From positions 1 through 20,138 of IMG/VR virus record IMGVR_UViG_3300042881_005502: 20,138 nucleotides of DNA. One strand, 5' to 3'. The position numbers and the translations under genes are program-made. Positions 1,742-19,342 of this stretch are shown one piece after another. A model generated the notes under the pieces. The model saw only the letters and a list, made by a program, of their open reading frames with translations. It did no database searches and was not told the origin of the DNA. Source of the stretch: a virus. Numbering within the stretch: position 1 is the stretch's first letter; every line of letters begins with the position of its first letter.

Positions 1742-4700
1742 CTAGCCTTCAAGTTCTGCGACACGAGCCTCAAGAGCTTCAATTTTTACAATAGCCTTCT
1801 GAAGGGAGACCATCGCCAGCATATATACATTATGCCAATTTACCGTCTCAACATCGCCAGAATCCGATTCTGGCGTATTAATTGCATCTGGAAAAGTGCC
1901 AATAAGGTCGTCAATCAGCAGGCCGTGTTGGATTTCGCTATCAACATGGTGAAGATCTGGCCACTGAGATCGCATTGCATCAGCATCCCACTTGAATTTT
2001 ACAAAATTTAGAGACTTAAATACATCAATTTCTAGAGGCGTACTTGCAATTTCCTTTTTGAACCTTGCCCACGAGGTCCCTGTTGAACGCCTAATTTGAT
2101 GACCCCCAGTAATGGCAACCCACATTGCCATGTTGTTAATTTGACCAGTTCCGCTTGTTGTTCCAAGCGCGCTTGCCTGAAGTGTTCCAACCGTAGTGGT
2201 GTCAGGAATAACCACTGAGCCGCCAACAATGTTGTTGTCGATAGTTAAGGTTGTGCCGTCATGATCAATTGTGGCTAGGATGCTATTTGCTTCAGTTCTA
2301 AAAGTAAGAGCTGGATCCTCTGCTCCGAGTGCGTCAATAAAAACGTCCGCACCGTTTGCAATGATGTTCCCATTTGAAGTGAAGTTCGCAGAAGTAGTGA
2401 CAGTCCCAGTGCTGTCAACTGAAAAAACAGTACCTGGAGACCCCCCTGCAGTCCCGTTAAATACCTGAAACGTTCCATCGGAGGTAAACCCGAATCGTGC
2501 GGTGAAGGCAGTTGCGGTAGGCGCACCCTCGTCGTAGTGCCCAGCGCGAAATGCCGTCCCAGCATTCACGGCAATTTCTCCGTATGTATTATTTTGATTT
2601 GCAAGGATAGATGGCTTCGTTCCGGAGTTGGCAACAATAAGGTTATTAAGTGTTGCGCCCGTTGCCGTCATTAACCCAGCGCTGCTCACCCTGAATGGAG
2701 CAGATGAAGCGGTTGCATTCCCCGCAAAAAACGGGAATGTTCCTGGCGCCATTCCAACCGAGTTTCCAGAAGAACCGGCGGTCAGCGAGGACGCATTGAT
2801 GGTAAATCCGCCGATTGTTCCGCCACTAGCAGTTATTGAGCCAGTAAAAGTTCCGGAGGTTGCAGTAATTGCCCCGCTGATTGTAGCGCTTGTTGCTGTT
2901 ATGGCCCCCGTATTACTTACCGTAAAGTTTGTGGATGTTATTGCATTTGTCCCACTGTTGACCAGAGAAGCCCCATATGGGGAGACCTCTGTTTCGGCAA
3001 CAGTTGCACTAGTTCCTACGGTGTAGGAGAACTTGGTGGCGGTTGGGGCTGGGCTCGCAAGGATTGTAAATGTCCCGTCAAATGGAGCGCCGATATTTGT
3101 TATCTTTACGCTATTTCCTGAGGAGTACCCGTGAGAAATTGTTGTCGTAAGCGTTGCCGTTGTTCCCGATTGCGCCTTGAAGGATACGTCTCTAAGGTTT
3201 CCAGCTCCAAACCTTGAGTCAATGACAAGCGCGCCCGACTTTATAACAGAGGCATCTAGCCCGGCAGCAGAGATAAGGCCCGCGGTGATGCTGTTGGCAA
3301 CAATATCAGATGAGCCAACTGCGTTAACCCACGTTGATCCGTCAGACCTTCTTAGGCCAGGCGGCGTACCGCCAAGATGGTAAACAAATGTTCCGGATGG
3401 ATATGACGCGCTTGGAATCGTTGGCAGTGTTGCAGAACTAATAATTTCAATAGCCTTAAGACTTGCTGCCAATTTTTCTGCGGTGATTGATCCGTCCGCA
3501 ACCGTAACTGTCGGCTCATTCGGTGCAATCGGTTCAGTTGTTTCGCTAAAATCACTGGCGGTTAAGTCCGATGATAAGGATCTAACTTTATACCTATACT
3601 GAAGAGAAGCAACAAGGCCGGAATCATTAACGTATGTGGCTTTTGTGTTTTGAACCGTTCTAAATTCGGTGAATAGGTAATAAACATATCCCTCCGCGCT
3701 GGTGGAGGCTATGGTGCCACTAGTAACAGATGAATACGTAAAGCTTGTTGTAGTTGTGCTGGAAACAGTCCACTGGCCCTCAAGGCCGCTAAGGCTTGTC
3801 TGGGTTGGATCAAGATCAACCCTGATCGTATCTCCGTTTACCAGACCGTGCGCTGCCGAGGTCGTAACAGTGACAGTTGAGCCGGATCTTGAGACTTCTG
3901 ATATTACCTTGAAGATTGCATCCTGTCGCTGCACTTCAAACGATGAAAGCTTCTTGTTAATTTCCTTCCCCTCGTCAAACGACCACGCAAGCGAGATCAT
4001 CTTGTCGTTGGAAGAAACCGTAAGGTCAGAAGGGCTGTCTGGAATGTCTGGAACTGGATTTACTGCCTCTAGTTCTTTTATCTTCTCGCTTAGTCTGATG
4101 AACGCGCTTCTCTGCAGCCTTACGTCGCCACCAACAGTGATGGTATATACAATGTCCATGCCGACCATCTCTGCCGCAACCGACTTGACAATGAGTGGCT
4201 TGGCAACCCCAAGGGTTTCCCAGATAAATGGAATAATTTGTCCGACTTCTGGGACTGGATACTCGTTGCCGTCTGCGTCCCACGGGCGCATTTTAAACGT
4301 GTACGACTCTATTGGCAGGCCGTTTTCTTTCCAATACCCAGCTGCCGAAAGCTCTGCGTCTGCAAGTGTTTCCACTCGGTCGTCTGTAATTGCTGCTTCA
4401 ACAATTTTTCCGTTTGTTGCCCAGACACCAGGAACAAAGTCGTAGTCAACGTACTGAACCGGATTTCCGCTTATGTCTGTAAGCGCAACCTTGTTGCCGC
4501 TTGAGTCTTTTGTCCTAAATACCGCATAGAGATGGAGCCTGTTTGCTGTGTTGCCTGACTCTACTGGGCTTGTTGGAATTTCCATTTCATAAATAGGAAC
4601 CGCGTAGCTAGTAGGATCTTCAGTCTCACCATACCCAAGCGATCCAGTAAGCTCGATTGCGCTCCAGTCGGTGAATGCGGCCGACCCAGTCTGAGAGCTG

Positions 4701-6586
4701 GTGCATTGACCCTCCAGTCCAAAGTATGCTGCATTTGCAGGGGCCTGTATAATTTTCCAAATTCTGTGCCATGTCTGTAGTGGGTCTCCAGGAATATTTC
4801 CAAGTTGGTCTGAATGTATCTGCGTCCCCGAAGAGTTGTACCAAAGAACGTACGCCCCGAGCCTGCCCTGATGTGCGCTTACCTTGCCACGAACTGAAAA
4901 AAAGTACTTTTTCCCAGGAACAGTTGTTGGCCTGCTGGCTGAATCTGTTGTTATAGTTGTGTTTGATGTGCTTGAAAGAACGCTATACCCAGCCCCGTAC
5001 GGGCCACTAGTGGATGCCTGGAGGGTAAACCCGGATGCGGTTGTCCATCCGTTTAAATTGCCATCATAAAGGCCGTTAACCACCAGCTCTTTTGGTGTTT
5101 TCGGGCCATAGTGAAGTCTGGTTGAGTAGTTTCCAGATCCATCTATTGACCCCTTATCAACCCAGTACTCTGCGCCCGTCTTCTCGGAAATGTAATCGAG
5201 TATCTGCCTAATGGTCCTGCCGCCGTATTGCTCTGCGTTTGGCGTATCGCTTTCCTGGAAATATGGACTGAACCGATATTGCGTGTCAACGGCCTGCACA
5301 TAGCTTGAAATATTGAGCCCAATATCTGTTACCCACGAGCTATCGAACAGGCCCCCAAAGACAGAAATTGGATAAAGCCACGACCTGACATTATCTGGGC
5401 CTATACCAATCCTCCAGTTTGCCCCGGCAACGGTATAGATCTCGCCGTCGGACCATCCCCTTGCAGATGATGTCGTCAGCGCAGTCGGTGACTCGACCGT
5501 ACTGTATGACTGGATGATTGCAGCGCCTCCAGAGGTTAAATATGAATTTGTTGTAGTCGCAGAACCGTCTTCTCCAGTTTTTGCGTATCTAATCGTTGTG
5601 GAAGACGGAACGCTTGTAATTATTGCAAAATCTTCTTGACCGACAGAAAATCCAGGAGTTTGAGGTATTGTGACAATAATTGGGTCCCCGGCAGACAGCC
5701 CGTGAGCCGTTGCCGTAGTGATTTCGACAACGTTAGAGGTTCTGCTTGCAGCAGTAATTGCTATAGAACCAGTCAGTACGTTAAGCGTTTTTGCAAGATA
5801 TTCAGTTGTGCTAGATCCAGTTCCAGCAGTTTTTGTTACGTAAATCCTTACGCTGTTTGCTGATCCCGGGCTTTTCCATTTTACTTTTAGCTTTTGAGTA
5901 CCTGTGCCAGCAGTAAGAGCAAGAGATGAAACCTTAGTGACTGGTCCGTACTGTGGCGTCGATCCGTCTCTTCCGGTGAGCGTAGAGCTTCTTGCCTGAG
6001 CTCTGACTTCATATGTTCCATCAGAAAGGCTGCCCCCAGTAGATTCAGATAGAAGCGAGAGTCCGTCAATTTGACCGACAAGCTGCGGGAGAGAGGCTGC
6101 CGATGTGTACGTCGTAGTTCCGCCATAAATGATGTCAATATCCCTAGAGTCTCTCGGGGCGTAGTAATCAGCAACGATGTGCTCTTCAAGGATTGCTGTA
6201 TTGTCCGCGCACTCAACGGTCTGGACAATTGTGCTGCCCTCGCGCTGACTTGACACGCGGGTGATGATCCCAGCGAAAAGCAATGTGTCTGGGTTTGTAG
6301 ATGTATCGATGATCCTGACTTCTGCGCGGTTTGGTATTTCAATGAGGAACGACTCGTCAAGAATCGCAGCGTTTAGCCTGTCTGTGAATGTGGCCCCCGA
6401 ATAGCTGCTAATCGTGTTCTGAGACTTCGGGAGAATGGTCCAAACAGGAATATTTGCGTTGGCGCTTGTTCCTTCGCTGTTAGACTCCCAGGTTAGGCTC
6501 TCGTAGTTAACGCGGTGGCTAATGTCATAGAAGGCTGGCGTCTGTCCCTCGTACTTCAGCTTGACGTAAATCCTTACCGTTGCCAC
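1742..6586 (-). CDS. Tail tip hub / fibre fusion protein with S74-type C-terminal chaperone
   Basis: This 1,614-residue structural protein starts at a GTG one base after the tape-measure stop (TAAGTG) with GGGAGA before it. Residues 1-160 resemble a baseplate hub/distal-tail start, with the phrase LLFAGIITRV. About 498-650 is a jelly-roll carbohydrate-binding-like segment (NGNLNGW-type start, then a WHR..APANAAYFGLEG core). About 850-1023 is an FN3 domain (PDSPSDLTVSS to YRYKVRSLS). E1_FCCH-like modules lie near 276-359, 893-966 and 1136-1206. About 1210-1450 is repetitive beta-fibre (GAITATSATISGAITATSG). The end is an intramolecular chaperone: SWARFKKEI with Ser1505 and Lys1510 spaced as in the S74 dyad, then a leucine/alanine coiled coil (KIEALEARVAELEG). 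It likely binds the host surface at the tail tip and self-cleaves before Ser1505. Confidence 0.88.
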   Translation of the reverse strand: MATVRIYVKLKYEGQTPAFYDISHRVNYESLTWESNSEGTSANANIPVWTILPKSQNTISSYSGATFTDRLNAAILDESFLIEIPNRAEVRIIDTSTNPDTLLFAGIITRVSSQREGSTIVQTVECADNTAILEEHIVADYYAPRDSRDIDIIYGGTTTYTSAASLPQLVGQIDGLSLLSESTGGSLSDGTYEVRAQARSSTLTGRDGSTPQYGPVTKVSSLALTAGTGTQKLKVKWKSPGSANSVRIYVTKTAGTGSSTTEYLAKTLNVLTGSIAITAASRTSNVVEITTATAHGLSAGDPIIVTIPQTPGFSVGQEDFAIITSVPSSTTIRYAKTGEDGSATTTNSYLTSGGAAIIQSYSTVESPTALTTSSARGWSDGEIYTVAGANWRIGIGPDNVRSWLYPISVFGGLFDSSWVTDIGLNISSYVQAVDTQYRFSPYFQESDTPNAEQYGGRTIRQILDYISEKTGAEYWVDKGSIDGSGNYSTRLHYGPKTPKELVVNGLYDGNLNGWTTASGFTLQASTSGPYGAGYSVLSSTSNTTITTDSASRPTTVPGKKYFFSVRGKVSAHQGRLGAYVLWYNSSGTQIHSDQLGNIPGDPLQTWHRIWKIIQAPANAAYFGLEGQCTSSQTGSAAFTDWSAIELTGSLGYGETEDPTSYAVPIYEMEIPTSPVESGNTANRLHLYAVFRTKDSSGNKVALTDISGNPVQYVDYDFVPGVWATNGKIVEAAITDDRVETLADAELSAAGYWKENGLPIESYTFKMRPWDADGNEYPVPEVGQIIPFIWETLGVAKPLIVKSVAAEMVGMDIVYTITVGGDVRLQRSAFIRLSEKIKELEAVNPVPDIPDSPSDLTVSSNDKMISLAWSFDEGKEINKKLSSFEVQRQDAIFKVISEVSRSGSTVTVTTSAAHGLVNGDTIRVDLDPTQTSLSGLEGQWTVSSTTTTSFTYSSVTSGTIASTSAEGYVYYLFTEFRTVQNTKATYVNDSGLVASLQYRYKVRSLSSDLTASDFSETTEPIAPNEPTVTVADGSITAEKLAASLKAIEIISSATLPTIPSASYPSGTFVYHLGGTPPGLRRSDGSTWVNAVGSSDIVANSITAGLISAAGLDASVIKSGALVIDSRFGAGNLRDVSFKAQSGTTATLTTTISHGYSSGNSVKITNIGAPFDGTFTILASPAPTATKFSYTVGTSATVAETEVSPYGASLVNSGTNAITSTNFTVSNTGAITATSATISGAITATSGTFTGSITASGGTIGGFTINASSLTAGSSGNSVGMAPGTFPFFAGNATASSAPFRVSSAGLMTATGATLNNLIVANSGTKPSILANQNNTYGEIAVNAGTAFRAGHYDEGAPTATAFTARFGFTSDGTFQVFNGTAGGSPGTVFSVDSTGTVTTSANFTSNGNIIANGADVFIDALGAEDPALTFRTEANSILATIDHDGTTLTIDNNIVGGSVVIPDTTTVGTLQASALGTTSGTGQINNMAMWVAITGGHQIRRSTGTSWARFKKEIASTPLEIDVFKSLNFVKFKWDADAMRSQWPDLHHVDSEIQHGLLIDDLIGTFPDAINTPESDSGDVETVNWHNVYMLAMVSLQKAIVKIEALEARVAELEG
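2028..2074 (-). other. Predicted S74 self-cleavage and chaperone active site
   Basis: The canonical S74 motif is S-D-x-R-x-K-x-x-I, cleaved just before the Ser. Here it reads S-W-A-R-F-K-K-E-I. Ser (1505), Arg (1508), Lys (1510) and Ile (1513) align; the Asp after Ser is Trp. Cleavage would release the last 110 residues after folding of the fibre trimer. Family knowledge: endosialidase-type C-terminal chaperones use this Ser-Lys pair. Confidence 0.7.
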
Positions 6587-9500
6587 TTATATTCTCCCTA
6601 CGCCGGACGACCTCAATAGCGATCGCTGTGCCCTTGAGACCTCTTCCGCCAGCTTGCGAATATCCTGATCGTTTCTTACAGTTGGGTTGTTAATAATAAC
6701 ACTTGCATTGACGGCGCCGCCTGACGAGTGGCCAGCGGCAGATATTCCGTTGATTGGACGGTATGTCCTTGGGAATACCCTCGCCACGCCAAATGGGGTC
6801 ACTTGCATAACCTCTGTTCCAGCCTCTCCTACCTTAAACGTACCAGGACCCATGACTGTGCCGCCGCTTGCCATTCCGGCAACTGGGTTTTTATTTCCGT
6901 AAGGGAAGAATATTTGATCGATGGCTTTCTTCCCCGCATTGAATTGCTTCATGACGGCAATTGGGTCATTTGTTTTCTGTGACCTTGTAAATAGGTCGTA
7001 CATATTTCCACCGTAGCTGAAAGAGGCCAGGGCTCTAGAAATTGCCATTGGCCACCCAACCTGCTGGGAGAAGGTAAGATTTTTTGGCATTTGCGCGTTC
7101 TGCAGGACCTTCATCATGTTGGCGAAGCGGATCGCAACGTTCTTCTTTTGAGCGTCGGCTACTGCCTTTTTCATTGCCGCAATTTCTGCTGGGTCCATAC
7201 CCCAACCGCGCCAATTGTCGCCTGCTCTTCCTCCCGGCATTGTCGACCAGTCACCAGGCGGGCGAGATGGTCCAGGCGGGGCATCAGTACCTGGATCTTC
7301 TTCTTCGGTCCCGTCACTCTTGCCATCGCCAACATCCTTGATTGCCTTCGCAAGCTGCTTTATCTTCTTAAGGAGTTTTTCAAGCTTGTTTCCAAGCTTT
7401 TCAAACTTGTCAATAATTGTGTCCCATGTTCCAAGGAACGAATCACCAAATTCAGCAGCATCTGCATCAAGGTTAGCGTCAAGAACTCCCATTTCTTCCC
7501 ATGAGGCGGTGTACAGCTCTTTAATCTTTTCAATTGCTTCTGATCCTGAAATTTTACCAGCCTCAAGGAGTGCCATGATTTTTGCCATGCCCTCCTGGAA
7601 CTTCATCCTAAGCGCCTCAAACTTTTCATCTATCTCTTTCAAGCCATCCTTTACCGGAGTGCTCATCATGGCTTCATCAAGAGCAATTTGCTTCCTTTCA
7701 AGTGATGCCTTCTTGACGGCCTCTGTTTTAGCCTCTTCTGCCTCCCTCATTCTTGCCGCAGCTTCTAGCGGGTCAATAGACGCGTCATACTGAGACAGTC
7801 TTGCCATCTCAATATTTCTATTTGCCTCTCGAAGCGACTTTTCAATCTCAAGCAGGCGGTTTTTCTTTTCTTGCTCCTCGATTTCTTTTCTAAGAGCAAG
7901 CAGGTTCCACGTAGTTCCCTCAACTATTACTTCCTGGGTCGCAAGGAATGCATCTTTGGCCTTTTCAAGCTCCTCTGCAAACTTCTTCTCAAAGACGGCC
8001 ATGATCCTATTTTGAAGCGCAGACTGAACCAGGCCGAATCTTGTTTGTAGCCAGCTAAGCTTGTTGTTTGCTGCCTCTAGGGCGGTGTTAAGCCCTTCCA
8101 CCTCTCCTGCCGTCCCGCCAATGAGTAGGTTGAACGCCGCAGCGGCATCCCCAGACATTCCGAATTTAGTAGAAAGTGTTTGAAGCAGCTGATTAAGCTG
8201 GTCAACGCTTGTAATAGTACCTTGCTGAACAATTGAGTTAATAATATCTGCCTGCGCAAACAATTGAGCTTTTTCGTAGAGCTCTTTATTCGCCACTTGT
8301 CCAGTTTTTCCATATATTGGCGCAGTTCCCGTCGGCGCCTCATTCATAAACTTGTTTTCATAGTATTTTTGAACTGCTGGCTTAAGCATGTCAAGCGCTT
8401 CAAGCGGTTTAGTAAGATCTGAAATCTGTAGACCGGAAGCAATTTGCCTTATTGCAGATTCTGGGGTAAGCGTGTCTTCGCCGGTAGCGGATTTTAATGC
8501 AGCGGCAACATCTTCCACCGTAACCATTATTTGGTCAGAAATAGATCCAAACTCTTGAAATGTTAGCTTATTATCTTTTAGGGCGTTGTTCCATAGTTGT
8601 GTCTTTATATCTGCTTCAGTAAGGTCTTGAACAATCTCTGATGTTTCTTGCTTAATTCCTATCAATGTTGCAAGCGCGTCGCCAAGTCCAGAGCCCAAAA
8701 GCCCGCCACCAATTGCTCCAACTAGTGTTCCGACAGGCCCAAAGATTGAGCCAGCAGCAGCACCTCCAAGTGCGCCGCCGAGGAATCCACCGCCGCCCCT
8801 CATTACGGCCCTTGTTGGATCTACGCCAGCAGCAAGATCTGCACCGACCCCAAGAAGAGAGAAAAAACCACCAATTTTGCCCATCGACTTCAAGCCGCTT
8901 GTAAGTACGCCCTTACCAATCTGGAGCCCGCTAAGGCCACTTGCAGCTCTTGCGTTTAGGCCAAGGCCCTGGGCTGCAGTGGCCCTGAACCGAGCCGCGG
9001 CCGTTCCGGCAACTCCAAGTTTTGCCCACTGACTTCCAGCAAATGCGGGGCCAGAGAAGAACGTTCCGCCAGCCGCTACGCTTGCAAGGGCCTGCGGGAG
9101 TCTTGCAATCGCCCCAACAAACTTCTGAACTCCTGAAAGGAACCCCTTTGCGCCAGCAACGAGTCCGCTTGCTGCAATCTTTGTATCTTTTGCCGCATCG
9201 GCCATTCTTACGCCAACTGCAGTTCCAGATGTTGATGCGGTAATTTTTGCCGTATTAATGCTGGCTTTTACAATTGCACCCAGCTCACCACCACGAGCAA
9301 CTGCAGCCTTTGCCTCAGAGGCATTCTTTGCTGTTCCAACAATGGATTTTAGCTTGTCAGCAAATACCGCAAGTGCATTGTCTCCCTGAGCCCTTGTAAG
9401 CGCACGGCTGGCCACGGCCCTTTCGATAACCGACTTGGCCGCCGTGGTTTGCGCCCTGACAACCCCAGCAACGCTTTTTGCCTTTTGGGTTGACTTGAAG

Positions 9501-12500
9501 GCCTGCTGGAACATGTCCTGCCTTGCAACAGTTCCGCCCATTCCCGCGGTTGCCCCGCCGATAAATCTTTGATAGCTGCCAAGCAATCCACCACTTGCAG
9601 CCTTTATCATATTTCCTTGAGGATCAAACTTTGGACCAGACCCAAGCACGAGACCCTTGGCAAGCTTACCGGCAAACACTGCAGCAAGGGCGACGCCAGC
9701 AATATTTGAAACAACCGGCACCTTATTAAGCGCTTCAAGTATCAAGTTTAATACCTTCAGGAACGCATTGAGCACAGGAAGCGCAAGGTTAATGGTGCTT
9801 ATGAGTGTCGCAGAGAACACCCCGGACATACCTTTTGCAACCTCCGCAAGAAGCGGAAGGATGTTTGATCTTATGTTTGCAACGATGCCTTGCATTGGGC
9901 CAACAAACTCATTAACAACGTCCCTTACGCCAAAGTCGTTGTTATCGTAGAAGCGAGAAAGCAAACCAATTGCGGCAATAGCTCCAGAAATTGCAATAAG
10001 CATTGGATTAGCGTTGAAGGCCATTGAAAGAACTTTGATCGCCGCCGCCGCCACGACCGCAGACCTGACCATCTTGTTTCTCATCATCTCGGCAATTGCG
10101 TTTACGCCGTCCCCGAATATGGCAAGAATGTTTCCTGCTTCACCGAATGTGGAAGAGAAGCCTACAAATTTGCTAATAAGTTCGGTGACACCTTGTACAA
10201 ATTTAGAAATAATTGTTGATATATCGTTTAGCGATGAGCCAAGCGCAGGAAGAACCTCAGCAAAGCTCGCCGCAAAGTCTGCGGACATTTTTCTTGCAGC
10301 TCTTGACTGGAAGAACAAGCCAACGTCGTACATGACGTCGCGGATGCCCTCGTATATTGGCTTTGTGATGAGGGCGACCATGTATTGGCTTGTGTCCTGA
10401 AGTGTCGACAGCGCACCCTTGAAGGTCTTAGACAGCTTCTCCATTCCGCCTCGGAACTGTGCGGCCATTTCGGCAAGAATTGCGCGGGCGGCAGCACCGC
10501 CCTCAATTTTTCCTCTCTTAGAGAGGGTTCGCATTGCCTGAACTGGTCCCTGGCTAAGAATCAGGTTTACTGTCTCCTGAACAATAGACCGCGCACCGGC
10601 AAGGGCCTTAATTTCTACCCCGCTTCTCTTAATTCCTTCGACGCCATATTTAGTTGCAAACTTTGTTACCCTGTTTGCTGCAGTGTTAAGGAGGTTGAGC
10701 ATTCTTGCTCCGTCGTCGCCGCGCAGAGACCCCTTATCAATCACCTGCCCAAGGTACTTAACCGACGCCTCGCCAGTCTTAACCATGTCCTTGATAACTG
10801 CCTTGGAGAGGAGCTCGTAACCAGCGATACCGGCGTTGGCCAGCTGCATCATGTCGTTTTGGTAGACGCGTCCTGATTGCTTCATCTGACCGAGTGCGTA
10901 TGTAATTCGGTTTAGCTTGTCGTCTTCACCTCCGAGCGCTGCTACTGCGTCTCCGATTGCTTGCAGATTCGGCATGATTTCTTCTGTTTCGAAACCGAAC
11001 GCGCGCATTCTTCGGGCTGATTCAACAAGCTCAGGGAATCTAAACGGCGTAATGTTGGCAAACTGTTGAATTGACGATACAAGTACGTTTGCCTGATCTT
11101 CTGCCTTTCCAATGTCAATGGACATTGCGCCCATGGCAACCTGTTCGTTTTCAAACAGCGTCTGGAAGGCAACGGTTGAGTTTTCAAGCTGGGCATTGAA
11201 TCCAATGATTCCGCCCTGAAGGTGGGCAAGCAGCGCGCCAACTCCTTGGCTGATCTGGCCAACGATCTGCTGGCTAAAACCGAACTTGATCTGGTCTAGG
11301 AACCTACCGAGTATTCCTTCTGTCTTTTGTGTAAATCTGTTTATATTTTGCTCTTGCTCTCTTAGGTCTTGAGAGCCGGGCAGAGAGTATCCAATCAGCC
11401 TTTGTGTGCCACCACCGCCACCAGCACCGCCACCCCCACCGCCCTTGCCGCCAACTGCCGCAACTGCCCCAGCCCTCCCAGCCTGGTTTGTAATTGCTGC
11501 AGCAAGGCCCTTAGCAGAAATCTTTCCGCCAGAAACTGCCTTAAGCTCCGCCATCATTTCTGAAATGCCGCGGACAGATGCCTTTATGTCATTGAGCTTC
11601 TTTTGCGAAACTGGGGCGATAGACTGAAGCGCACCAAACATGTCCGCAACGCCACGAGCAGAGTTTCTGATGTTTTCAATATTCTTTCCACCGATTGGTG
11701 GAATTGGTCCCTGGTCTCCAGACGGAGAAACTGCAGTGCGTCGCCTTCCGCCACCCCTCCCTCCTCCACCGCCACCAGCTGCAGGGGCAACTGTAACGAC
11801 AGCAGCCTGTTCTACTTTTGTTGCTGCTGCTCTCGTTCTCCCAGTGCCCTTAGCAGCTTTCGCAACGGCATCCGATGCTGCTTCGGCAATGGTTTCAGCT
11901 GCTTTTTCAACCTTTGGCTTTGTTGCCGCCGCAGCTTTTGACTCTCTTGCAACCGCCCTTTCCCCCCTTGCGCGTTCGTCTGGCCTAACGCCCTTTGCAA
12001 GGTCTGCAGCCGCTTTCGCAAGAGCTTGAACTGCTGCCTCAAGATTGGCAGACGCTGCAGAACCGGTTGTGGCTTGGCCAATATGGGGAGCAACGACTTT
12101 TTGCAACATTGCTGCCTCAGCAGTTCCAAGCAACCCATATTTTGCCCCTTCACCGGAAAGCAGAACTGCAAGTCTTTCTATTTTTCCGTAAGCGCCCCTA
12201 GCACGGAATTTTGTACCACCAATTTTTGGAACTCGATCGTAAATTGTTGCGTATTTTGCAAATTTTGATACTGTAATAGATTCATATTTTTTTGTTGCTT
12301 TTTCTGCAATAGACTTAAGCCGCCTGCCCTCAGCAGTCCCTTCAAACATATTATTCTGCGTTAGTCGTATAGTGCCTTCTCGTTTTTCTAGATTTCGTAC
12401 ATGCCTGTCTTTTAGATCTTTATTTCTTTCCAAAGCATACAATTCATTATTTAATTGCTTAATTTTGTTTCTATCTTGCTTTTTTTGCGGATCTAGCTTA

Positions 12501-15157
12501 GCAATCCTCTCTCGTATCGGCCCTGATTTTGCTTTCCACTCCTTATGGGCATCTTGAGCCGCTAGTCGTGCTTGTCCAATTTGAGGTGAAAGAGCATCTA
12601 GTTCTTTTCCAAGAGCTTTATATTTTGGATCGTTTTCCCAGAATGTTTTCTTCGCGCTCCAGAATTTCTCGCGGGCTTCATCCCGATCAATAAGTGCCTT
12701 AGATTTTGCTTCGGCAAATTTTTGCACTGCCCGGCTTTCATCTTTAAATCCATCACTTTCAAGCCATTTTCCAGGAAGATTACGCTTAGCCACTGATGGG
12801 TCACCAAAGCTGTTCATAAACTCTGGATTTTGCGCAAGCCAACCTAGGGCATCTTGATCGTATCCACGGGTCGCAAGAATTCCCTTGTAAGAGGCTTTTT
12901 CAATTTGTTTTCTGTTTCCCTCTACAAATGTTCCAGCCGGGCCTCCAAGCGATCTATAAAGAAGCTCATATGATCCAATAGTGTCGTTGTATATTCTTCC
13001 TGCTCTAAGTGCAGCTTGATAGTTTTCAAAGGTTGGCCTTCCGTTTACAGCCAAAACTGCATTATGGTAATTGTCCCAGATTGTATTTGCGTTTTTGAAT
13101 ACAAGATCTTTTTCTGCTTTTAAAGCACTAGAGATCACTAGTGCCCTTGCGCCTGGTGTTGCTTTTATGCCCTGCGCCCTGTTTATTGTTGCTTCGCCAG
13201 ATAAAAGAACGTCTGCGTGTGTAATGCCTGCAGGATTTCTCTTTAGTGCGCTATAAAATTTTCTTGTTTGCTTTTTATATGCGTCAACCCTGCCTATCAT
13301 CTTTGCTTTTATCCTGGACGCAATCTCCTCATCGGAAAGTATTGACATTGGCCTTCTGTACTGTATTGAACCTGCCTTCAATACTTTTGAGCTTCTTTCC
13401 AGAACTGAGGCAAGACCCCTTGCCTCTGAATCGCCAGTAAGAGCGCGCACGGCAAGCTGGCGCTCTTTGTCTGATCCAGTTAGCTTTCTTACAGCGCCCT
13501 TAGCGTCGTTGACGCTAGAAACAAATTTTATAAGCTCCTGACCGCTTGCGCCAAGAGTCATTCCAACGGCAAGCAAAACCTGATTCTTTGCTGGTTTTGG
13601 AAGAGATGTCCAGGCGGGGGACTTAAATACTTTTTGTAGCTCTTTGAAGTATCCTATTCTTTCCTGAAGGTTTTCGTATGTTCCTGCTTTTATCAGCGTT
13701 TTATGGCCAACAGCGCCCTGTTTTTGTGCATCTTTGTATGAAGACTCAACGTCATCTCTAAACTGTTTAAATGCATCAAGAACATTTTGAGGGGCTTCGC
13801 CTTTATGAGTATTTCTACCCATCAAGCTCTCAAGTGGTCCGTGTATCTTCTTGGCAAGATTTTCTATTTTTGCGGATTTTGCTGCTTTCTTTGCCTCTCG
13901 AATCCCGGCTGCTTTTTCATGCCTTGCGAGTCTCTCTCTTTTTGCCGCTGCTCCCTTTGGGGCATTTACAAACGCAGAAAGAATTGCACCAACAAGACCA
14001 TCTTTTGCATTCAGTGCAAGTTCAGAGGCAAATTTTTCTATTGCTTTTTCGCTTTCTCCAACATGTATTGGAGCCCTGGCAGAAACAAACATTTTAGAAC
14101 TAGAAAGCTTACCAGCAGATGATCTTCCCTTTACTTTTGCCCTTTTGATTTGCCCGGCCCTTGACCTGGCAAGCGCCGTTGCAATGGCCTTTGACGCAGA
14201 GGCCTTTGGGTCTTTTCTAAGAATTTCTTCCGTTTCTCTTAATAGAACTGGAAGGTCTTTTTGAATAAGACTTTTAATTTCTCCTGGAATTTTTGACGCA
14301 TTTGGACCTGAAAATATTTTTCTTATGTTTGTTGGTCTTCCATTGGCATCAAACCTTATACCCTCTGATGATGCCCCTGCGATCAAAGAAATAACCTGAG
14401 CTGCAGCCTCAAGCCCAGCAAATCCTCTTTGTGATATTAGTCTTTCTAGCGACCTGTTAAGACCTCTTGATATAAATTCTGTTTTCCCAAGGGGTCCCCT
14501 ACCAAATGCCCCAAGAAAAGCGTTTCTTTGAGCTGCATTTCCCCTGATTTTCATTGCGCCCATTGCTTCGGACAAAAGTCGATCTATCGTTTTCTGTGGA
14601 TTTAGTTTTATTTTTCCACGAACAGTTTTGTGTTTTCCTTTCAAAAGGTCATTTGCAACAGTTGCCGCAATGGCTTCCGCTGATGATTTTCTTCTTCCAG
14701 CCGCAGCTGCTGATGCCCTCTTTCTGACAAGAGCTTCTTCCAGGGCAAACCGCACGTCAGCGATTGCACTCCTTGATCCAGGAATAGTTCCATCAATTAT
14801 TCTCGCTTTGTCCAATGCCAAAAGGAGACGCCTCATTCTTGGCGATCCTGGTGTTATATATCGATCAATCCTTTTCCCAGTTAGCAAGTCATGGGCAATT
14901 CTTTCTTGAATTGCTCTTGGCAATATTGAAAACACCGAATCAAATTCTGCTAGTCCCTTTGGCGCATTCCCAAATGAAGATTCACCGGACTCTGGATCTT
15001 TCCAAGGTGAAGAAAAGATGCGTCTTTCTTCTATAAGATCGCGAAGCGATTTGTAGTATGAGGCGTACTCATCTGATTCGTCTGAAATTTTTGCTATTTC
15101 AGACCAATTTTCTAGGAGATCATTAAATTCTTTGTCCCCGGTAACTGTTTTGGCCAT
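6587..15157 (-). CDS. Tape measure protein, very long, with basic N-terminal extension
   Basis: This 2,856-residue protein sets tail length and threads the tail tube. It starts directly after the chaperone stop (TAAATG), with AAGGAG 10 nt upstream. Residues 1-1230 are basic, helical and Ala/Lys/Arg-rich, with no recognised domain. Glycine linkers (GGGGGGRGGG near 1130, and another near 1245) separate them from the classical part. Residues about 1320-1450 match the tape-measure domain (AQLENSTVAFQTLFENE ... QLANAGIAGYELL). Hydrophobic helices lie near 1700-1735 and 1815-1840, a glycine zipper near 2105-2160 (GGGFLGGALGGAAAGSIFG), and a charged coiled coil near 2360-2500. The C-terminus has the familiar ASGGTVMGPGTFKVGEAGTE phrase. 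At about 0.15 nm per residue the tail would be near 430 nm, or near 240 nm if the extension is not part of the ruler. Confidence 0.93.
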   Translation of the reverse strand: MAKTVTGDKEFNDLLENWSEIAKISDESDEYASYYKSLRDLIEERRIFSSPWKDPESGESSFGNAPKGLAEFDSVFSILPRAIQERIAHDLLTGKRIDRYITPGSPRMRRLLLALDKARIIDGTIPGSRSAIADVRFALEEALVRKRASAAAAGRRKSSAEAIAATVANDLLKGKHKTVRGKIKLNPQKTIDRLLSEAMGAMKIRGNAAQRNAFLGAFGRGPLGKTEFISRGLNRSLERLISQRGFAGLEAAAQVISLIAGASSEGIRFDANGRPTNIRKIFSGPNASKIPGEIKSLIQKDLPVLLRETEEILRKDPKASASKAIATALARSRAGQIKRAKVKGRSSAGKLSSSKMFVSARAPIHVGESEKAIEKFASELALNAKDGLVGAILSAFVNAPKGAAAKRERLARHEKAAGIREAKKAAKSAKIENLAKKIHGPLESLMGRNTHKGEAPQNVLDAFKQFRDDVESSYKDAQKQGAVGHKTLIKAGTYENLQERIGYFKELQKVFKSPAWTSLPKPAKNQVLLAVGMTLGASGQELIKFVSSVNDAKGAVRKLTGSDKERQLAVRALTGDSEARGLASVLERSSKVLKAGSIQYRRPMSILSDEEIASRIKAKMIGRVDAYKKQTRKFYSALKRNPAGITHADVLLSGEATINRAQGIKATPGARALVISSALKAEKDLVFKNANTIWDNYHNAVLAVNGRPTFENYQAALRAGRIYNDTIGSYELLYRSLGGPAGTFVEGNRKQIEKASYKGILATRGYDQDALGWLAQNPEFMNSFGDPSVAKRNLPGKWLESDGFKDESRAVQKFAEAKSKALIDRDEAREKFWSAKKTFWENDPKYKALGKELDALSPQIGQARLAAQDAHKEWKAKSGPIRERIAKLDPQKKQDRNKIKQLNNELYALERNKDLKDRHVRNLEKREGTIRLTQNNMFEGTAEGRRLKSIAEKATKKYESITVSKFAKYATIYDRVPKIGGTKFRARGAYGKIERLAVLLSGEGAKYGLLGTAEAAMLQKVVAPHIGQATTGSAASANLEAAVQALAKAAADLAKGVRPDERARGERAVARESKAAAATKPKVEKAAETIAEAASDAVAKAAKGTGRTRAAATKVEQAAVVTVAPAAGGGGGGRGGGRRRTAVSPSGDQGPIPPIGGKNIENIRNSARGVADMFGALQSIAPVSQKKLNDIKASVRGISEMMAELKAVSGGKISAKGLAAAITNQAGRAGAVAAVGGKGGGGGGAGGGGGTQRLIGYSLPGSQDLREQEQNINRFTQKTEGILGRFLDQIKFGFSQQIVGQISQGVGALLAHLQGGIIGFNAQLENSTVAFQTLFENEQVAMGAMSIDIGKAEDQANVLVSSIQQFANITPFRFPELVESARRMRAFGFETEEIMPNLQAIGDAVAALGGEDDKLNRITYALGQMKQSGRVYQNDMMQLANAGIAGYELLSKAVIKDMVKTGEASVKYLGQVIDKGSLRGDDGARMLNLLNTAANRVTKFATKYGVEGIKRSGVEIKALAGARSIVQETVNLILSQGPVQAMRTLSKRGKIEGGAAARAILAEMAAQFRGGMEKLSKTFKGALSTLQDTSQYMVALITKPIYEGIRDVMYDVGLFFQSRAARKMSADFAASFAEVLPALGSSLNDISTIISKFVQGVTELISKFVGFSSTFGEAGNILAIFGDGVNAIAEMMRNKMVRSAVVAAAAIKVLSMAFNANPMLIAISGAIAAIGLLSRFYDNNDFGVRDVVNEFVGPMQGIVANIRSNILPLLAEVAKGMSGVFSATLISTINLALPVLNAFLKVLNLILEALNKVPVVSNIAGVALAAVFAGKLAKGLVLGSGPKFDPQGNMIKAASGGLLGSYQRFIGGATAGMGGTVARQDMFQQAFKSTQKAKSVAGVVRAQTTAAKSVIERAVASRALTRAQGDNALAVFADKLKSIVGTAKNASEAKAAVARGGELGAIVKASINTAKITASTSGTAVGVRMADAAKDTKIAASGLVAGAKGFLSGVQKFVGAIARLPQALASVAAGGTFFSGPAFAGSQWAKLGVAGTAAARFRATAAQGLGLNARAASGLSGLQIGKGVLTSGLKSMGKIGGFFSLLGVGADLAAGVDPTRAVMRGGGGFLGGALGGAAAGSIFGPVGTLVGAIGGGLLGSGLGDALATLIGIKQETSEIVQDLTEADIKTQLWNNALKDNKLTFQEFGSISDQIMVTVEDVAAALKSATGEDTLTPESAIRQIASGLQISDLTKPLEALDMLKPAVQKYYENKFMNEAPTGTAPIYGKTGQVANKELYEKAQLFAQADIINSIVQQGTITSVDQLNQLLQTLSTKFGMSGDAAAAFNLLIGGTAGEVEGLNTALEAANNKLSWLQTRFGLVQSALQNRIMAVFEKKFAEELEKAKDAFLATQEVIVEGTTWNLLALRKEIEEQEKKNRLLEIEKSLREANRNIEMARLSQYDASIDPLEAAARMREAEEAKTEAVKKASLERKQIALDEAMMSTPVKDGLKEIDEKFEALRMKFQEGMAKIMALLEAGKISGSEAIEKIKELYTASWEEMGVLDANLDADAAEFGDSFLGTWDTIIDKFEKLGNKLEKLLKKIKQLAKAIKDVGDGKSDGTEEEDPGTDAPPGPSRPPGDWSTMPGGRAGDNWRGWGMDPAEIAAMKKAVADAQKKNVAIRFANMMKVLQNAQMPKNLTFSQQVGWPMAISRALASFSYGGNMYDLFTRSQKTNDPIAVMKQFNAGKKAIDQIFFPYGNKNPVAGMASGGTVMGPGTFKVGEAGTEVMQVTPFGVARVFPRTYRPINGISAAGHSSGGAVNASVIINNPTVRNDQDIRKLAEEVSRAQRSLLRSSGVGRI

Positions 15158-15487
15158 TTACTCTTTCTCCTTGGCCCGCTCTCGCATTTTTGAAATGCGA
15201 TCACGTACAAGCTTCTGCTTGGCTTCTGGAGAACCAAACTGCATAACCAGGGCGTCAATAGACGATTCCTTGTCGGGAGCGCTGAGGATTCTCTTTCCGC
15301 CAGCTGCCCTGTCGTCGGACTTGGACTTGAACTTCTTGTCTCGCTCTTCCATGTATCGGCTGAACGAGGCGATTTGGGGAAGGGTCATACGCATGAAGTC
15401 ACTCGGCGTGTAGCCAAATGCATCAGCGTACGATCCCATAATTACACCCCAGTCAATATCAGACCAGCCTACGCCCGACTTGGAGCT
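15158..15487 (-). CDS. Tail assembly chaperone, frameshift-only part (T-like, read as G-T fusion)
   Basis: This frame is entered by a -1 slip at 15487-15493 and has no stop between the slip and its end. The full fusion would be 94 codons of the G-like frame followed by 109 residues of this one, 203 residues in all. After the slip it reads SSKSGVGWSDIDWGVIMGSY, then DAFGYTPSDFMRMTLPQIASF, which has the W-x-D-I-x-W plus GYTP..F..MTLPQ pattern of actinophage T-like chaperones. The rest is highly charged and Lys/Arg-rich. Such fusions bind the tape measure and recruit tail-tube subunits; they are absent from the virion. An ATG at 15439 could start a 93-residue shorter form alone (GGGGTG lies upstream), but the frameshift explains the upstream coding sense better. 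Confidence 0.85.
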   Translation of the reverse strand, partial: SSKSGVGWSDIDWGVIMGSYADAFGYTPSDFMRMTLPQIASFSRYMEERDKKFKSKSDDRAAGGKRILSAPDKESSIDALVMQFGSPEAKQKLVRDRISKMRERAKEKE

Positions 15488-15768
15488 TTTCCCACTTGCT
15501 CACCATCGGTGGCTTCCTCTGGGAGAAGTCCGCTGTCGCGAAGGACCTTGGTCACTGTTTCCTGCATGCTCTTGATGTCAAATCGCTCGCCCACTTCGCG
15601 CTCGTCCACTTCTGGCTCGTTCTTGCGAATCGCAAGCCAGAGCACGTAGCGAAGAACGGTGAACTTGTTAAAGTCGACCTGATCAATGGCGCCATACCGC
15701 TCTTCGAGGTCCGCCAGATCATTAAGGCTTAGTGCCTTCTTTGGGCTAATTTCCACTAGGTTTGCCAT
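15469..15768 (-). CDS. Tail assembly chaperone (G-like, unshifted product)
   Basis: This 99-residue acidic protein starts MANLVEISPKKALSLNDLAD and has a helical middle (FTVLRYVLWLAIRKNEPE) and an acidic linker ending in the slippery site. It lies between the major tail gene and the tape measure, where siphophages place the G chaperone. The ATG at 15768 was chosen because GGAGAGG lies just upstream; the frame stays open to 15870, but that would place the start inside the terminator hairpin. Most ribosomes should stop at 15469 and a minority shift into the T-like frame. Confidence 0.88.
   Translation of the reverse strand: MANLVEISPKKALSLNDLADLEERYGAIDQVDFNKFTVLRYVLWLAIRKNEPEVDEREVGERFDIKSMQETVTKVLRDSGLLPEEATDGEQVGKAPSRA
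15487..15493 (-). promoter_or_regulatory. Programmed -1 frameshift slippery site GGGAAAA
   Basis: The minus-strand heptamer is read G GGA AAA in the G-like frame, the exact X XXY YYZ form needed for a -1 slip to GGG AAA. The new frame continues without a stop into the T-like chaperone. The unshifted frame ends six codons later at 15469. Confidence 0.85.
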
Positions 15769-15792
15769 TTTCCTCTCCTGTCTTTGTCCAGT

Positions 15793-15809
15793 CACGGCAA
15801 GTCGCCGTG
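15793..15809 (-). other. Inverted repeat in the leader of the chaperone/tape-measure transcript
   Basis: CACGGC and GCCGTG flank a 5-nt loop. The repeat begins almost exactly at the start expected from the -10 TATGAT at 15815-15820, so it could form a 5'-end hairpin protecting the mRNA or modulating translation. Confidence 0.35.
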
Positions 15810-15814
15810 TGGAC

Positions 15815-15820
15815 ATCATA
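15815..15820 (-). promoter_or_regulatory. Candidate -10 element restarting transcription before the chaperone gene
   Basis: TATGAT matches the sigma70 -10 at five of six bases and lies 47 nt before the ATG at 15768 and about 24 nt after the terminator U-tract. No convincing -35 lies 16-18 nt upstream. If used, it would uncouple the chaperones, tape measure and fibre from the major tail protein level. Confidence 0.35.
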
Positions 15821-15843
15821 GCGCAACCAGCGCCATGTTTATT

Positions 15844-15884
15844 TATAAAACAAAGAACCCCCAAGGGCAAGCCTTGGGGGTTCT
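15844..15884 (-). terminator. Rho-independent terminator after the major tail gene
   Basis: On the minus strand a perfect 13-bp stem (AGAACCCCCAAGG with its complement) closes a 5-nt loop and is followed by the U-rich TTGTTTTAT. It lies 24 nt after the major tail stop. A smaller stem (CGGGC/GCCCG, 15887-15899) sits between. This would boost the tail-tube transcript relative to downstream genes. Confidence 0.88.
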
Positions 15885-17394: not shown

Positions 17395-17859
17395 CTACGA
17401 GGTTCCTCTTGTGGTTGTCAAATTTACGACCGGGTCCATCCTGCCGCCGTAATATTTGCAAGTCCTACATTCCCTGTCACCATTCTTGCGCCAGTAGGTA
17501 TTTTCCCATGAGTATTCATGGCCATGCTTGCAGTGGGTGTTTCTAAGCTTCCCAGCGTCGCCACGACGCGTGTTCATTCTTGGGGTCACAACCTCAAGGT
17601 GCTCAAGGTTGACGCACTTTCTATTTCGGCAAAGGTGGTCGATCTGAAGGCCGCTTGGCACTCCGCCGTTCTTGTGCTCGTAGTGCCATTTGTGGGCATT
17701 GATCTTGCGGCCCTTGTCGTCCTTGAAGGCTCCGTATCCGGAGGGATCAAGCGCGCCAGTCCACTCTAGGCAGCCTGAATCAACCTTGTTCACATACCTC
17801 ATGAATCTTACATAAGGATCTGTCTTAGGTCTTCCGCGCTTTACTTCTTTCTCTTCCAT
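17395..17859 (-). CDS. HNH endonuclease (homing-type)
   Basis: This 154-residue protein carries a clear HNH core: LQIDHLCRNRKCVNLEHLEV with Asp74-His75, Asn84 and His87 as the expected metal and catalytic residues, and MNTRRG after it. Before the core is CLEWTGALDPSGYGAF and a W-H-Y helix, as in HNH_3-like phage enzymes. After it, C-x3-H (110-114) and C-x2-C (131-134) form a zinc ribbon (CKHGHEYSWENTYWR...CRTC). Such free-standing nucleases nick or cut DNA and spread themselves between phages; some help packaging. It stands between the membrane-gene operon and the HTH gene, with its own leaderless-looking promoter, which suggests independent insertion. Confidence 0.9.
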   Translation of the reverse strand: MEEKEVKRGRPKTDPYVRFMRYVNKVDSGCLEWTGALDPSGYGAFKDDKGRKINAHKWHYEHKNGGVPSGLQIDHLCRNRKCVNLEHLEVVTPRMNTRRGDAGKLRNTHCKHGHEYSWENTYWRKNGDRECRTCKYYGGRMDPVVNLTTTRGTS

Positions 17860-17907: not shown

Positions 17908-18111
17908 CTATCCCCTAAGTCGGAGCGGCATCGTGACCAGCCAGATCAGCGTTAGCCAACCAAGAACACTGCCAACGAAGTTTCTTGTCTCGCCATCCGG
18001 AAGGACAATCCAACCAATGAGAAGGCCAAAGATTGTCCAGGACTGGCTTACAAGATCATTTGCAACCGCAATAAGATTATCCTTGTTCAAGAAGCTAAAG
18101 ATATTACGCAT
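17908..18111 (-). CDS. Small membrane protein, last gene of the exported/membrane operon
   Basis: This 67-residue protein has a polar N-terminus ([20 protein letters not shown]), then two hydrophobic segments: [15 protein letters not shown] (about 24-38) and [20 protein letters not shown] (about 44-63), ending with basic LRLRG. Two membrane helices joined by a short DGETR turn are the likely topology. The gene overlaps the preceding PT-rich gene by 8 nt, with GGGGGAGAA before its ATG, so the two are translated together. It could be a second holin, an accessory lysis protein, or a membrane partner of the exported protein. No family is recognised. Confidence 0.75.
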
Positions 18112-19342
18112 TATTGATTCTCCCCCGTGGGCCTCTAGTAGCGGAAGACGCAGCGGCCACGGCTGACTGCGCTACCTGGGTGATGACCACCGCAGCAACA
18201 ATTGTCGGAGCAGCCTCTTTTCGCTCCGATTCACTAATATCTTTTCCTAGGTTTGCGACTGGCGCAAGCGCTGCTCCAACTGCCTCCCCAACTGCTTCCG
18301 CAGCAGCTCCAACTGCCTCGCTAACGGCTTCTGCAGCAGCTCCAACAGCTTCGCCAACAGCCTCTGCGGCCTCACCAACTGCGCCAGCTACATCTGGCAG
18401 AGCGGGCTGTGTTGGCTCAGGAGAAGGAACAGGAGAGGGATCAGGAGAAGGGGCCACTGATGGCGAAGGGGCGGACGACGGCTCGGTCGACGGTTCGGGT
18501 GAGGAAGTCGGCTCTGGGGTTGGCTCATTTGTTGCCTCCGGGCTTGGAGTCGGCACAATGGTCGGCTCTGGTGTTGGGGTTGATACTGGGTACGGTGGCG
18601 GCTCGGTCGGATCTGGGCTTGGCGTTGGAAGAGGAGTTGGGGATGGCTCTACAGAAGGCTCTGGCGTGGGCGTAGGAGCCACGGTAGGGCTCGGAGTTGG
18701 TGGCTCTGGGGTGGGAGAAGGGGTTGGCTCCGGAGTTGGCTCTGGGGTCGGTTCTGGGGTTGGCGTAGGTGTCGGCTCTGGCGTGGGCTCAGGCGTTGGC
18801 TCTGTGGTCGGAGTAGGGGTTGGCTCTGGGGTTGGCGACGGTGTTGGCTCTGGGGCAGGAGGTCCAACAACCCAAGAAGTGTTAGTGATTGTTAATGTTC
18901 CAGAACCACAGCAGGAATCAAGTGAGAGGACGCGAAACCCAAAGGCGCCGCCAGCGGTTACATACACCTCAATTGTTCCGCTTGCAGATCGTGTGTTATT
19001 TGCAAGATCGGTCCAGAGATCGGAAAGCAAAACCTGCGGTCGATCAAAGTACGCGTTATCAGTCGTTATAAAGGACCATGAGAAAGATACAGTCTCGCCA
19101 AGAGATGAGTTTGTTGTGATTCCAGTTACGGTGTTCGCCCACGGCTGTCCCGGCAGCACGTTGTTGCTGCCATCAATGACAATTGTTCCCTCGGTAAGAG
19201 TTATGACTCCGTTTGCGTCGACCTGTTGATCCCACTGATCGGTATCGTCAAGGGCGTACACGGGCGAGGTTAAATAGCCAAAGGTTAGGGCGCTTACAAT
19301 CAGCCAGATGATTGCAGCAGCTACAAACTGCTTCTGGGTCAT
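18104..19342 (-). CDS. Exported Pro-Thr-Glu-repeat protein with Ala-rich helical repeats
   Basis: This 412-residue protein is unrecognised as a family. Residues 1-30 are a signal peptide (basic start, hydrophobic core [20 protein letters not shown] cleavage site). Residues about 31-157 are beta-rich, with a Cys pair ([14 protein letters not shown]). About 160-312 is a PTPEP/PSPEP linker like wall-spanning segments of surface proteins. About 320-357 is a tandem 11-residue repeat ([11 protein letters not shown]). The end holds a hydrophobic stretch ([20 protein letters not shown]) and basic GPRGRINNA. This suits a globular head displayed outside, a stalk through the wall and a membrane anchor, but the C-terminal helix is weakly hydrophobic. 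The start overlaps the upstream stop (ATGA). Possible roles are blocking superinfection, altering the cell surface or assisting lysis; all are inference. Confidence 0.85.
18272..18378 (-). repeat. Tandem 33-bp repeats coding 11-residue Ala-rich units
   Basis: Three near-identical units encode [11 protein letters not shown] (one with S for G), followed by a degenerate fourth ([11 protein letters not shown]). The 11-residue period with Glu at fixed positions predicts an amphipathic or coiled helix. Synonymous differences between copies show they are not very recent duplications. Confidence 0.8.
18412..18862 (-). repeat. Low-complexity PTPEP/PSPEP coding repeat
   Basis: About 150 residues of alternating Pro with Thr, Ser and Glu, encoded by imperfect 6- to 15-bp units. 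It forms an extended, rigid, acidic linker. The strand asymmetry produces a long meaningless open frame on the opposite strand. Confidence 0.9.

Follow-up and report, generated by a model that had tools for sequence, protein, structure and literature searches.

An extended basic N-terminal module in a phage tape measure protein, and variable N-termini in its relatives

The tape measure protein (TMP) encoded on a 20,138-base virus record from IMG/VR, the whole of which is referred to here as the window, carries an N-terminal extension of about 1,240 amino acids beyond its cultured relatives. Residues 1 to about 1130 are best read, with a probability of roughly one half, as a variable TMP module that would lie in the tail lumen, lengthen the tail and be ejected just ahead of the DNA. 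The extension has a base composition of its own, has homologues that diverge fast and are under purifying selection in related phages, and belongs to a group whose TMP N-termini are variable. The gene and its neighbours are as follows:

6587-15157, minus strand: TMP gene, an open reading frame (ORF) with matches to PF20155, PHROG 12798 and PHROG 9959, downstream of lambda-like chaperone ORFs
10358-11377, minus strand: conserved TMP core, aa 1261-1600, with TMP_3 at aa 1350-1480 (Pfam; 76 IMG/VR loci; 159 cultured-phage records)
15158-15439, minus strand: probably the GT portion of the tail assembly chaperone (-1 frame open from about 15493)
15469-15870, minus strand: probably the G tail assembly chaperone, listed with 133 aa (match to the PHROG 2115 tail protein at E 4.7e-6)

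The TMP gene is uninterrupted and encodes 2,856 aa. Its ATG overlaps the stop codon of the upstream ORF (TAAATG) and is preceded by a purine-rich AAGGAG. The TMP_3 family (PF20155) was matched with 42.8 bits against a cut-off of 41, and PHROG 12798 (TMP) was matched from aa 1266, which corresponds to profile position 16 (E 1.5e-17). The gene order is that of a TMP, with the two chaperone-like ORFs upstream and a 1,614-aa tail-like ORF downstream, and four hydrophobic stretches are found in the pore-forming part (aa 1696-1830), with none in aa 1-1260. Contig L003 is a second copy of the region with 4 mismatches in 11,450 bases. The two chaperone-like ORFs, which we take to resemble the lambda G/GT pair, span 15158-15870 on the minus strand. 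Ahead of its stop codon the 133-aa ORF contains an in-frame GTG GGA AAA (near 15493), a slip site beyond which the -1 frame stays open into the second ORF. The tail-like protein (1742-6586, minus strand) has a weak C-terminal match to Peptidase_S74 (13.3 bits, cut-off 22). Also on the minus strand are a 412-aa ORF (18104-19342) with a long Pro/Thr/Glu/Ser repeat tract and a GC content of up to 0.64, and, near the tail genes, a 154-aa ORF (17395-17859) that resembles an HNH endonuclease by its motif.

Cultured phages such as Arthrobacter phage Yang and Riemerella phage CRP19 have only the core in common with the window, at 21-38% identity among the matches listed. A search with the core matched 159 cultured-phage records, eight of which, all annotated, were opened to determine the distance from the TMP start to the matching region. 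This distance was 50-329 residues in all eight (Yang about 80, CRP19 53, Blastoid 50, Bacteroides p00 52, Lily 152, Riverbug 101, Vibrio 1.159.O 81 and C3_41T2LP 329), whereas it is about 1,310 in the window TMP. The corresponding points in the window TMP lie at aa 1308-1364, which, together with the position of TMP_3, agrees with the original prediction that the recognisable tape measure domain begins near residue 1320. A search of 50,697 phage records with the N-terminal 1,226 aa remained empty up to E 10, and the module matched no family in Pfam or NCBIfam at E 0.01, in PHROG at E 0.05, or in the PDB.

Within and next to the extension, four features were delimited:

11768-15157, minus strand: AT-rich basic N-terminal module, aa 1-1130 (GC3, net charge, sliding identity)
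13958-14602, minus strand: best conserved block, aa 186-400 (GRGPL..K, FD..G.PTN.R), found only in this phage group (alignment A9)
12278-12700, minus strand: predicted long coiled coil, about aa 820-960 (AlphaFold2, pLDDT 53-86 per 10-residue block)
11408-11776, minus strand: junction of two glycine runs around a short segment conserved in lineages L004, L006 and L010

The glycine runs, at aa 1128-1137 and aa 1239-1250, are the two linkers that had been noticed earlier. The helical nature claimed for the extension rests on an AlphaFold2 model of aa 1-1150 that is mostly helical with almost no strands, has a mean pLDDT of 45 and is confident only in the coiled coil. The block at aa 186-400 is sharply conserved and rich in G, D, N and P. 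Neither HExxH nor DxDxD was found in the N-terminal part by a motif scan. A P23-45-type RNA polymerase was set aside for lack of DxDxD, and a kinase was rejected, as the lone DRHxxN (DRHVRN, aa 917) lies inside the predicted coiled coil with no ID motif after it. A DKDYD carried by L005-L009 and L011 at residue 3, hence at the extreme N-terminus, was taken as chance.

The base composition of the module differs from that of the remaining protein. In windows over about 12.0-15.25 kb the GC content is 0.39-0.45, which bears out the low GC reported for 12.2-15.1 kb. The downstream part is not evenly richer in GC (0.438 at 8,251-8,750; GC3 0.34 over aa 2101-2300), and the shift sits near aa 1020-1130 rather than at aa 1230. 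A check of codon use confirmed the contrast: GC3 of aa 1-1130 was 326/1109 = 0.294, against 0.471 expected for identical amino acids with the codon use of the downstream part (z -12.3). The same test gave 0.411 against 0.456 in L006 (z -4.0), 0.382 against 0.403 in L010 (z -2.0) and z values of -1.7 to -6.3 in six sequences of the L012-L025 lineages; 12 sequences from other groups were mostly near zero, with L034 (-6.3), L028 (-2.3) and L045 (+6.3) as exceptions. The window thus departs furthest in base composition, and a milder dip is common among the nearest groups.

The description of the module as rich in Ala, Lys and Arg over about 1,230 residues applies to the basic residues (Lys/Arg 18.0% versus 10.9%); Ala is hardly enriched (15.1% versus 13.8%) except in aa 1021-1130, where it reaches 33.6%. 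The net charge is +76 over aa 1-1130 and +18 over aa 1261-2856, and residues 1-60 are acidic. Basic N-termini are also found in L006, L010, L012, L020, L023, L024 and L025 (+5.5 to +10 per 100 aa), and acidic ones in another group (L034 -115, L036 -39).

Homologous N-termini are present in the L005-L011 lineages, and L004 has the 3' part. In three lineages with a homologous N-terminus the core is 67-75% identical and the N-terminus far more divergent. Before aa 1000 the module is 13-43% identical, per 100 aa, to L006, L009 and L010; over aa 1301-1600 the corresponding values are 59-88% when L004, L006 and L010 are compared and 59-85% for L006 and L010. The N-termini of L006 and L009 gave a dN/dS of 0.14, and those of L006 and L005 0.15; the homologous module is therefore under purifying selection in these relatives. 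Between L006 and L009, 63 of the 77 N-terminal differences fall within one tract of about 750 bases; in L006 compared with both L009 and L005, the tract of differences lies about 1,500-750 bases ahead of the core. Such a tract between near-identical phages is probably due to allele exchange. Quartet tests of aa 700-1130 and of aa 1261-2856 both favoured a tree pairing the window with L006 and L004 with L010, a second tree being unrejected for the latter segment. The N-terminal tree is compatible with that of the remaining protein, and the expected partner switch of L004 was not significant. In L010 an extra C-terminal stretch with HEIGH (aa 2895) lies between matches to window residues up to 2816 and from 2726, and because of this stretch the C-terminal side of the TMP is seen to accept inserts as well. 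Scans with A2, L006, L010 and A9 returned only further contigs of already known lineages.

A scan of IMG/VR with the core returned 76 loci, the 5' end of the TMP being complete in 60; counts of loci are not independent because many near-duplicates (e.g. L006, L007, L008 and L011) are included. Among these 76 loci the N-termini range from 52 to 2,979 aa and form 11 BLAST groups. At least 300 residues precede the core match in 58 of the 60 complete loci and at least 1,000 in 42. The shortest N-termini, those of L070 and L074, have only 52 and 66 residues before the core, which can thus stand alone. A profile comparison of ten groups linked, over short stretches, the L026, L038 and L042 groups at their ends and L068 with L026 in the first 91 residues of the latter, and the L028 and L055 groups were alike over the first 100 or so residues. 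Since these first 100 residues are common to the L028/L045 and L055 groups, the alignments suggest that the extra part was inserted behind a common N-terminus and not added at the front. The window's group was linked to none of the others in this comparison, the best value (80.6% over 24 residues, with L042) being taken as chance. Kinship with the L012-L023 group, in which an FD..G.P stretch is similarly placed, was set aside at a profile comparison probability of 0.2%.

Enzyme-like matches were found in the N-termini of more distant relatives. A Pfam scan of 30 of the 77 available N-termini, the window included, gave matches at E 0.01 to ddrB-like ParB in six and to PI3_PI4_kinase in three. 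Scanned singly, L057 and L071 were above the ParB cut-off and L055 and L065 below it, and for PI3_PI4_kinase L045 was above the cut-off and L047, which is truncated, below. HExxH occurs in 26 of the 60 complete N-termini, whereas shuffled sequences give an expectation of 0.34, and these belong to three groups, one of which adds two DRHxxN/ID motifs and another a ddrB-like ParB domain. DRHxxN followed by ID was found in two copies in seven loci and in one copy in an eighth. The double copies occur in L045 (in the regions of aa 700 and 1900), L044, L047, L049, L051, L072 and L073, together with two HExxH motifs, and the single copy in L046; the TMPs with double copies are giant multi-domain proteins, complete ones being about 5,400 aa long. 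Pfam matches aside, we take HExxH to be metallopeptidase-like and DRHxxN/ID to be kinase-like. The kinase-like reading of L045 draws on its Pfam match and the repeated motifs; an AlphaFold2 model of the segment had a mean pLDDT of 34. Sequence searches of the PDB returned no relative for this part of L045 or for the L012 and L055 groups, and searches of cultured phages with the N-termini of L045 (kinase-like part), L055, L034 and L012 returned nothing at E 0.01. A DNA ligase match in L034 was weak (16.5 bits, cut-off 26.2) and was set aside. The enzyme-like groups are 35-47% identical to the window in the best core segment. In the groups nearest to the window (L004-L025, 50-75% identity) the N-termini have no enzyme-like matches.

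From these observations, a module that is real and constrained would be coupled to an ordinary TMP core through a glycine-rich hinge. Because the C-terminal helix of the lambda TMP has been located at the tail tip (PMC10721106), the N-terminus is placed on the side of the head, and it should be the last part to exit. The module would thus most likely be head-proximal in the tail lumen, where it would contribute to tail length, and it would exit after the pore-forming part, directly before the DNA. As a module delivered by the virion, it would have the membrane or the host cytoplasm as its site of action, where it would probably bind DNA or a host protein. The proposal of a delivered domain is made by analogy with the motifs of relatives and with Thermus phage P23-45; the window's own module bears no such motif, nor a recognisable effector domain in Pfam, NCBIfam, PHROG or the HExxH scan. 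More tentatively, and with somewhat less than even odds, the TMP of this whole uncultured group may be a delivery platform whose N-terminal modules (putatively metallopeptidase-like, kinase-like, ParB-like and others) are interchangeable, the window's being of a previously undescribed class, basic and mostly helical, that would serve as a ruler and enter the cell before the DNA.

It is also conceivable, albeit unlikely, that the extension is a plain ruler, an extended helical segment in the tube that only lengthens the tail. At 0.15 nm for each residue, arithmetic gives a tail of about 430 nm with the extension and about 240 nm without it. The mostly helical model with its coiled coil points this way, as does phage TP901-1, in which N-terminal duplication or deletion in the TMP alters tail length proportionally (PMC5099701). 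Phage P74-26, whose tail is nearly 1 um long (PMC10034513), is related to P23-45 with its 5,002-aa polymerase-bearing TMP (PMC10770324), which indicates that fused parts probably count as length. A ruler function is compatible with all of this without being exclusive, but a pure ruler leaves the G/D/N/P-rich block and the basic charge unaccounted for, and the HExxH, kinase-like and ParB-like matches at the same place in relatives would be superfluous to it. The charge would fit a head-proximal plug that holds the leading end of the DNA or recruits many tail assembly chaperones, the more so as several relatives are basic too. A plug is nevertheless improbable, given the acidic N-termini of L034 and L036 and the failure of profile searches to find a known DNA-binding family in the module.

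The module was also considered as a foreign segment that recently entered this phage lineage and retained the composition of its donor, in line with the acquired extension of the original prediction. The GC3 deficit speaks for this, and the tract between L006 and L009/L005 suggests that exchange occurs there. But homologous N-termini exist in L005-L011 and L004, including L006 and L010 where the GC3 shift is weak, and the quartet trees of the N-terminal part and the core are without conflict (the second tree for the core part being unrejected). Recent acquisition was accordingly dropped as the leading reading and is very improbable. Full-length homologues of uniform composition had been named as evidence against acquisition, and they were found in part: the homologues exist, and GC3 is nearly uniform in L006 and L010. 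An artefact (a wrong start codon, an assembly chimera or decaying filler) can scarcely be credited, as L003 repeats the segment, the stop and start codons overlap and relatives are under purifying selection; no points in its favour were found. A module carried in the tail and ejected ahead of the DNA remains the preferred reading.

Several known systems resemble this arrangement in part. Sle1-type effectors of contractile injection systems (CIS) likewise combine a TMP-like scaffold with a functional part that can be exchanged and is loaded in a tail-like tube (PMC13277306). In that system the variable part is C-terminal and a DUF4157 protein is the partner, whereas the window's variable part is N-terminal and lies inside a phage tail gene cluster. 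No DUF4157 match was found among the six window ORFs scanned (Pfam, E 1) in this record, which is a fragment. The polyvalent proteins described from phages and conjugative elements combine ddrB-like ParB and HExxH metallopeptidase themes and are predicted to be delivered with the DNA; the text of that paper does not contain the term 'tape measure' (PMC5512222). The TMP N-termini of the window's relatives are alike in matching ddrB-like ParB and bearing HExxH, while no polyvalent domain was matched in the module of the window itself.

The closest precedent is P23-45, whose gp96 is a 5,002-aa TMP with a virion RNA polymerase as its N-terminal part, suggested by its authors to act at the pore during DNA entry (PMC10770324). 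Titles and the starts of abstracts in the open-licence PubMed Central literature revealed no TMP with a kinase-like or ParB-like N-terminus. The kind is already known from P23-45; a TMP family with many unrelated N-terminal modules was not found in that literature. If the modules are indeed exchangeable effectors, the tail too, and not the head alone, would be a route for proteins of first-minute takeover or anti-defence, and the phage group amounts to a natural experiment on whether folded cargo is counted by the ruler. Compared with P23-45, the window's module lacks DxDxD and any detectable sequence relation, and is mostly helical in a poor model. Both are giant siphophage TMPs with a module of about 1,000 residues ahead of the tape measure part, and the polymerase fusion of P23-45 would, if TMPs of this group do carry exchangeable effectors, be one instance of a wider habit.
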